From positions 2,666,001 through 2,730,000 of the forward strand of contig NZ_CP035494.1 of the NCBI RefSeq assembly GCF_004135285.1: 64,000 nt of DNA, given 5' to 3'. Below, one piece after another: positions 38,347 to 39,559 of the stretch. Below the pieces are notes generated by a model. It was given only the letters and a program-made list of their open reading frames with translations, did not search any database and was not told the origin of the DNA. The position numbers were made by a program, and so were the translations under genes. Numbering within the stretch: position 1 is the first letter of the stretch; every line of letters starts with the position of its first letter. This stretch comes from Microbacterium protaetiae. Lineage in GTDB: Bacteria > Actinomycetota > Actinomycetes > Actinomycetales > Microbacteriaceae.

Positions 38347-39438
<1,092 letters not shown>

Positions 39439-39459: not shown

Positions 39460-39543
39460 GGGAAATTCCATATGGAATTTCCCCCTCCACATCAAACTTC
39501 CGGAAAATTGATGTGGTCTGGGAAATTCCATATGGAATTTCCC
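39460..39543. repeat. Triple AT-rich palindrome with 30-bp centre spacing
   Basis: Two identical perfect 24-bp palindromes (arm GGGAAATTCCAT) lie at 39460-39483 and 39520-39543. Between them is a 30-bp palindrome at 39487-39516 with outer arms CCACATCAA/TTGATGTGG, core TTCCGGAA and two mismatches. Centres fall at 39471.5, 39501.5 and 39531.5, exactly 30 bp apart. The block starts 22 bases after the prfA stop. It is strikingly AT-rich against its surroundings. Confidence 0.95.
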
Positions 39544-39553
39544 GAGGCACGGA

Positions 39554-39559
39554 TAGGGT
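39554..39559 (+). promoter_or_regulatory. -10 hexamer TAGGGT, leaderless promoter
   Basis: TAGGGT, six bases (CGGGGC), ATG at 39566. Its -35 region would fall inside the right-hand palindrome (39520-39543). Confidence 0.55.

Follow-up and report, generated by a model that had tools for sequence, protein, structure and literature searches.

In REP-RAYT systems, RAYT genes are always flanked by two inverted REPs, according to the excerpt of PMC2817692 on which we draw. RAYTs are relatives of the IS200/IS605 tyrosine transposases; each REP is a short hairpin that has a GTAG-type foot and is cut in single-stranded form (PMC2817692 and PMC8266576, both as excerpted). In type IV toxin-antitoxin systems, the antitoxin AbiEi binds to inverted repeats whose half-sites are 23 bp long (PMC3985639, excerpt). 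We describe here a palindromic block that recalls the first of these systems in its layout and the second in one half of the protein that appears to belong to it.

The window analyzed is a 64,000-nt stretch of the Microbacterium protaetiae chromosome (genome G000). The block lies in it between prfA and a gene for a 134-aa protein, ending 22 bp before the latter (Table 1). A first-pass annotation had described three palindromes with centers exactly 30 bp apart, the outer two identical, and this description was confirmed. By reading, the central palindrome is imperfect (13 of 15 pairs match), and the entire 84 bp also forms one inverted repeat with 42-nt arms that match at 88%. The block is as AT rich for its GC-rich surroundings as had been noted, with a G+C content of 0.49 to 0.56 in 80-bp windows, against 0.60 to 0.76 around it. 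Its folded strand has a z score of −9.9 relative to shuffles, and its 22-bp core, allowing up to three mismatches, matches its own genome 43 times, against 0 times for the reversed sequence used as a control. By both measures, the architecture is far beyond chance.

Table 1. Positions of the block, its parts, and its neighbors in the window
Feature	Position	Strand	Remark
prfA (PCRF and RF-1 domains), upstream gene	38347..39438	+	21 bp separate its stop codon from the element
Whole 84-bp dyad element	39460..39543	.	One of 27 copies in its own genome (G000)
Left 24-bp palindrome P, GGGAAATTCCATATGGAATTTCCC	39460..39483	.	Center 39471/39472; perfect
Outer half-site, left arm, CCATATGGAATTT	39468..39480	+	19-bp direct spacing; placed by reading
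Central palindrome M, 30 bp, CCACATCAAACTTCCGGAAAATTGATGTGG	39487..39516	.	Center 39501/39502
Inner half-site, left arm, CCACATCAAACTT	39487..39499	+	19 bp from outer; placed by reading
Inner half-site, right arm	39504..39516	-	Mirror image; placed by reading
Right 24-bp palindrome P, GGGAAATTCCATATGGAATTTCCC	39520..39543	.	Center 39531/39532; perfect; 100% identical to left P
Outer half-site, right arm	39523..39535	-	Mirror image; placed by reading
TAGGGT, possible −10 box of downstream gene	39554..39559	+	7 nt before ATG 39566
Downstream gene, 134 aa	39566..39970	+	No Pfam family at E ≤ 0.001

The right arm had also been proposed to cover the −35 region of a leaderless promoter of the downstream gene. 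By reading this is plausible, with the TAGGGT that we take to be a possible −10 box, and TAGGCT occupies the corresponding position at the prfA loci of the genomes G098 and G010. Since G010 retains TAGGCT although no triple palindrome was detected at its prfA locus, the promoter can probably do without the block.

A genome-wide search for the palindrome, as the first-pass annotation had advised, returned further copies: the 3.79-Mb chromosome carries 27 dispersed elements, on which BLAST and the central motif agree and each of which has the central palindrome. The 43 core matches comprise 11 that stand singly and 16 pairs at exactly 60 bp, the distance between the two outer palindromes in 16 of the 27 copies. 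By reading, several copies have one outer palindrome replaced by an apparent further half of the central motif. Twenty copies lie within 60 bp of the stop codon of a long high-GC3 open reading frame (or overlap it by at most 25 bp), compared with 6.6% of random blocks in the window; five lie between two such stops, and about four, by reading, between divergent starts. This placement is like that of BIMEs, which are intergenic and often stand behind genes. The copies at C1 positions 614557 (L043) and 1492450 (L051) are inside long high-GC3 reading frames, the former having an orthologous element in the congener G091 (L120). The copy at 3431504 (L058) seems to lie just behind what we take to be the 3′ end of the RNase P RNA gene, and BLAST found a weak fragment of the element at 2029363.

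The block had been read as either an operator array or a short mobile palindromic element. With 27 dispersed copies, the mobile element is the nearer guess, and the block is not a one-off operator. Many copies with flanking duplications were to have marked a MITE; the copies are many, but no target-site duplications were seen by eye in those inspected, for which there was no empty site for comparison. Nor was a parent transposon with such ends found in the genome, all 43 core matches lying within the 27 copies. Rfam returned microRNA models only, far below the gathering score, as expected of any long hairpin. The exact core pattern was absent from viral contigs, and in plasmid and phage records nothing matched the window's element at E ≤ 0.001. 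Among GTDB contigs there was one exact core match, in a Desulfobulbaceae metagenome-assembled genome (L064), which is probably due to chance.

Across the genus, the 22-bp core, allowing up to two mismatches, was found in 0 of 148 other congeners. BLAST with the whole element gave nothing in 22 congeners, and of 15 genomes from other families, 2 had short, weak matches. Absence from all relatives was to have counted against a conserved site, yet at the orthologous prfA site, G098 has a triple palindrome that differs in sequence but keeps the 30/30 spacing and is likewise dispersed within its genome. The skeleton common to the two genomes, CATATG-N13-CACATC-N16-GATGTG-N13-CATATG, matches 6 of 366 genomes, including M. 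protaetiae itself (25 matches), G094 (18), G098 (19), and G068, G091, and G097 (one each). A relaxed form has 19 matches in G094, 28 in G098, and 15 each in G068, G097, and G091, with 1, 0, 0, 0, and 0 for the reversed controls. In M. protaetiae, a more divergent skeleton copy (C1:494292-494357, L141; two mismatches) has a half-site of the GAGAGCACATC type found in other species and is possibly older or foreign.

At 8 of 36 foreign element loci (19 in G098, 8 in G094, and 3 each in G068, G091, and G097), both flanks match the two sides of one M. protaetiae copy. We compared identities over the 27 M. protaetiae elements, 11 of 28 in G098, and 8 of 19 in G094. In seven orthologous pairs, identity to the M. 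protaetiae copy was 0.49 to 0.54 (G098) and 0.61 to 0.68 (G094), against medians of 0.49 to 0.54 (G098) and 0.60 to 0.62 (G094) for nonorthologous cross-species pairs, and a median of 0.73 to 0.84 for copies within a species. Because copies at orthologous sites resemble the paralogues of their own genome more than each other, the copies show concerted evolution, with position kept and sequence rewritten genome by genome. Two of the three G094 orthologues (0.68 and 0.64) equal the highest nonorthologous cross-species values, which hints at residual common descent.

Two of the copies flank a gene (C1:3769127-3770149), located from the element positions, that encodes a 341-aa protein. It lies outside the window, about 1.06 Mb from the block beside prfA, between what read as acyl-CoA synthetase-like and peptide deformylase-like open reading frames, and the locus is syntenic in three species. 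The protein has an AbiEi-like DNA-binding half (PADLOC AbiEi matches at 8e-11; 6y8q) and a nuclease-like half, and its fold is best explained as an AbiEi-like winged-helix domain joined to a PD-(D/E)XK/EDxHD-type (DUF559-like) domain with putative cleavage activity. It had no Pfam match at E ≤ 1, and 7 of 31 homologues match AbiEi_4. Residues E221, D253, E262, D264, and K268 are invariant in all 31, none of which matches a Y1 (IS200/IS605-type) transposase at E ≤ 0.1. By reading or annotation, neither an AbiEii nucleotidyltransferase nor another AbiE-type toxin partner was seen at the loci inspected, including seven from a plasmid collection. The two closest homologues in the genus (69% and 56%) are in G094 and G098, the congeners rich in strict-skeleton matches (18 and 19), and both have elements at the homologue gene; the next homologue scores 256 bits. 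The G091 homologue reads as overlapping frames in an assembly that is 68% complete. Four other homologues in the M. protaetiae genome have repeats around each, to which low complexity may contribute, and these were not counted.

Homologues are present in 318 of 366 genomes, and we examined 33 loci (L159 to L188, plus L154, L156, and L157), with the near-duplicates L185/L188 and L169/L174 counted separately. At 30 of the 33, comparing the 420 bp upstream of the gene with the 420 bp downstream gave a match at E < 1e-6; among the controls, 1 of the 131 random spans did so, as did 1 of the 105 gene-aligned other genes. Each locus has its own bracket sequence. The self-inverted score alone is not diagnostic, with 19 of 131 random spans passing at 1e-6, and the automatic choice of center took low-complexity DNA in certain flanks, such as those downstream of L159 and L160, so those pairs come from direct comparison of the flanks. 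Triple palindromes at 30 bp are by themselves conspicuous in only about 5 of 30 homologue loci, and the upstream-downstream flank comparison finds nearly all. What the bracket elements have in common is a dyad of 84 to 90 bp in which each arm has two direct half-sites at a spacing of 19 bp. Identity at a lag of 19 is 0.67 in 39 elements from 25 loci, 0.41 in 17 M. protaetiae copies, and 0.27 in random DNA. It is this dyad, rather than the three palindromes, that the relatives share, and the triple palindrome is the form that the four-half-site dyad takes in the M. protaetiae lineage. Similarity between proteins and similarity between their elements are correlated (Mantel Spearman r = 0.71, p ≤ 2e-4, 23 loci), shared descent contributing to the correlation.

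The center of the upstream copy lies 140 to 143 bp before the chosen start codon at 11 of 26 loci. Helical phasing of this copy to the start codon was considered and rejected, the periodicity being unspecific (similar R for periods of 9 to 11.5; p = 0.07 for unique distances). At two loci, contig ends deserve mention. The upstream flank of L163 (G033:C45) ends in what we take to be Illumina/Nextera adapter sequence, so this contig end of a public assembly is probably contaminated; the flank of L162 (G127:C13) is filled at the contig start by a 194-bp, 90% inverted repeat, which may be a genuine element or a contig-end artifact.

The bracket predicts that the element beside a homologue should recur elsewhere in that genome. 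In G291, it recurs near full length at five further places in addition to the downstream partner; in G050 and G324, only short pieces were found (best E values of 0.14 and 0.014). In the reverse direction, one of the dyads found blind in 400 kb of G332 has a partner about 1 kb from it, and the two enclose a gene for a 274-aa protein in which DUF559 and AbiEi_4 domains score above the cutoff. Two results from G332 did not fit. The first, a failed check of generality, concerns G332's own bracket pair, for which the 20 stretches of 20 kb gave no additional copy (best pieces, E of 0.02). Five of the 22 dyads in the sample that reach 26/42 or better have the 19-bp signature. Because a profile of the 31 homologues matched nothing in the G332 sample, we regard the 274-aa protein as a distant sister. 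The second result that did not fit is another G332 pair, which brackets a different gene, a hydrolase-like open reading frame. Two strong G332 dyads (L237:6344 and L238:3545) have a common CATACGCAGAAGG-like motif without the 19-bp signature and belong perhaps to another repeat or terminator family.

Beyond the genus, we took seven homologous genes from plasmid-collection records (six Tsukamurella and one Collinsella; best place per record), some of which look like chromosome pieces in that they carry core genes. Strong bracket pairs surround four of the seven (E of 2e-18 to 1e-35), and the other three have no strong pair (0.01, 1e-4, and 0.03). None of seven control genes from these loci (seven of eight had long enough flanks) gave a pair at 1e-6. 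Bracket copies included, three Tsukamurella elements recur at 3, 10, and 16 places and the Collinsella element at 15. Their anatomy is unlike the 19-bp type. At one Tsukamurella locus (L241), the bracket consists, by reading, of arrayed GGTGGGGGA-like units instead of palindromes, another design with the same protein type.

We propose, with a probability of about two in three, that the block beside prfA is a solo copy of a DNA element whose cognate is the two-domain protein with AbiEi-like and nuclease-like halves, in a partnership like that of REPs and RAYTs but with an unrelated protein and a different element. The proposal draws on sequence comparisons that show a repeat family, its bracket and the recurrence of that bracket over homologues, a four-half-site dyad, concerted evolution, and correlated protein and element similarity. 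The AbiEi-like half would very likely bind the half-sites as a dimer or tetramer, and the upstream copy would probably let the protein control its own gene. More tentatively, the nuclease half might nick or cut the element or the hairpin it forms; repair that draws on other copies might then spread new ones to permissive places behind genes and overwrite old ones, leading to species-wide homogeneity at conserved positions.

The same sites might instead form an operator regulon, in which an AbiEi-like protein regulates or insulates neighboring genes from fixed positions and the copies change together through selection after a shift in specificity, with no copying. AbiEi is itself an autorepressor on inverted repeats (PMC3985639, excerpt), eight foreign loci share both flanks with one M. 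protaetiae copy, and the distance of 140 to 143 bp to the start codon is frequent. We nonetheless consider this regulon unlikely as a full account: copies adjoin stop codons far more often (20 of 27, five of them between two stops) than they lie between divergent starts (about 4), an operator has no need of the downstream bracket copy, and in every species, selection would need to rebuild about 84 bp in parallel at some 27 sites. An operator role could coexist with the solo-copy proposal. The likeness to AbiEi in PADLOC and the nuclease-like half would also suit self-recognition in defense, with chromosomal elements restraining or titrating a nuclease that cuts DNA without elements or is freed on infection. 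This is improbable, given the absence of a visible toxin partner beside the gene at the loci inspected, the lack of matches in phages, and the synteny of the locus in three species, which most defense genes do not have.

The position behind genes and the very stable predicted hairpin (z of −9.9) could point to an RNA-level device, such as a bidirectional terminator or a stabilizer of mRNA 3′ ends. By reading, however, the centers are perfect and without loops and there is no T tract; Rfam yields only microRNA models below their cutoffs; and the 19-bp direct spacing of half-sites, the bracket, and the species-wide homogeneity would be left unexplained, so that we give such a device very little weight. 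Lower still we place a MITE of a conventional insertion sequence since lost from the genome. Its copies would indeed be dispersed, inverted, and mostly intergenic, but no parent with such ends was found outside the 27 copies, orthologous copies differ in sequence, and brackets recur around the homologues of one protein.

If the solo-copy proposal is extended, these elements may belong to a repeat class found throughout the Actinomycetota, although we put this somewhat below an even chance. Each AbiEi-DUF559-type protein would own a private dyad, bracket its own gene with it, seed it behind other genes, and rewrite every copy by cutting and repair as its specificity drifts, a gene-conversion drive independent of REP-RAYT. 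Annotation probably lists many AbiEi/DUF559 genes as orphan antitoxins or hypothetical genes, as it does the seven plasmid-collection loci, and if each keeps its own repeat family, such genes would acquire a function. The class would also explain recurrent intergenic palindromes in high-GC Gram-positive bacteria and place next to REP-RAYT a second, independent example of repeat populations maintained by a protein. The matched pairs of protein and site from 23 loci would also be a resource on how winged-helix DNA specificity changes.

Searches of open-access PMC papers turned up no report linking AbiEi/DUF559 proteins with dispersed or bracketing palindromes. Because of this and because no family that we tested fits, we regard the system as new in kind; the analogy of layout with REP-RAYT is the main argument for a lower novelty. 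BIMEs and other intergenic repeat families are unrelated in sequence, architecture, and partner gene, as far as the excerpts of PMC2817692 and PMC3733652 go. A MITE shares terminal repeats with an autonomous transposon, whereas here the core, even with three mismatches, is confined to the 27 copies. Compared with DUF559, Vsr-like, and EDxHD nucleases (I-Bth0305I) and with TnsA, no intron, intein, or transposon context was seen, and the sites are multicopy intergenic dyads. The protein is AbiEi-like (PADLOC, 6y8q), as in type IV toxin-antitoxin systems, but with no AbiEii nucleotidyltransferase seen next to it, a fused nuclease-like half, and dispersed sites. The likeness to REP/RAYT (TnpA-REP) systems and REPINs lies in many-copy palindromic intergenic repeats and a gene bracketed by two of them (PMC2817692, excerpt): 30 of 33 homologues are so bracketed, and dispersed intergenic solo copies occur in M. 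protaetiae (27) and G291, with none in the 400-kb G332 sample. Instead of a Y1 tyrosine transposase and a short hairpin with a GTAG or GTGG foot, of which reading of the 27 copies and the bracket pairs gave no sign, the partners here are an AbiEi-like protein with a PD-(D/E)XK/EDxHD-like half and a dyad of 84 to 90 bp with four half-sites.
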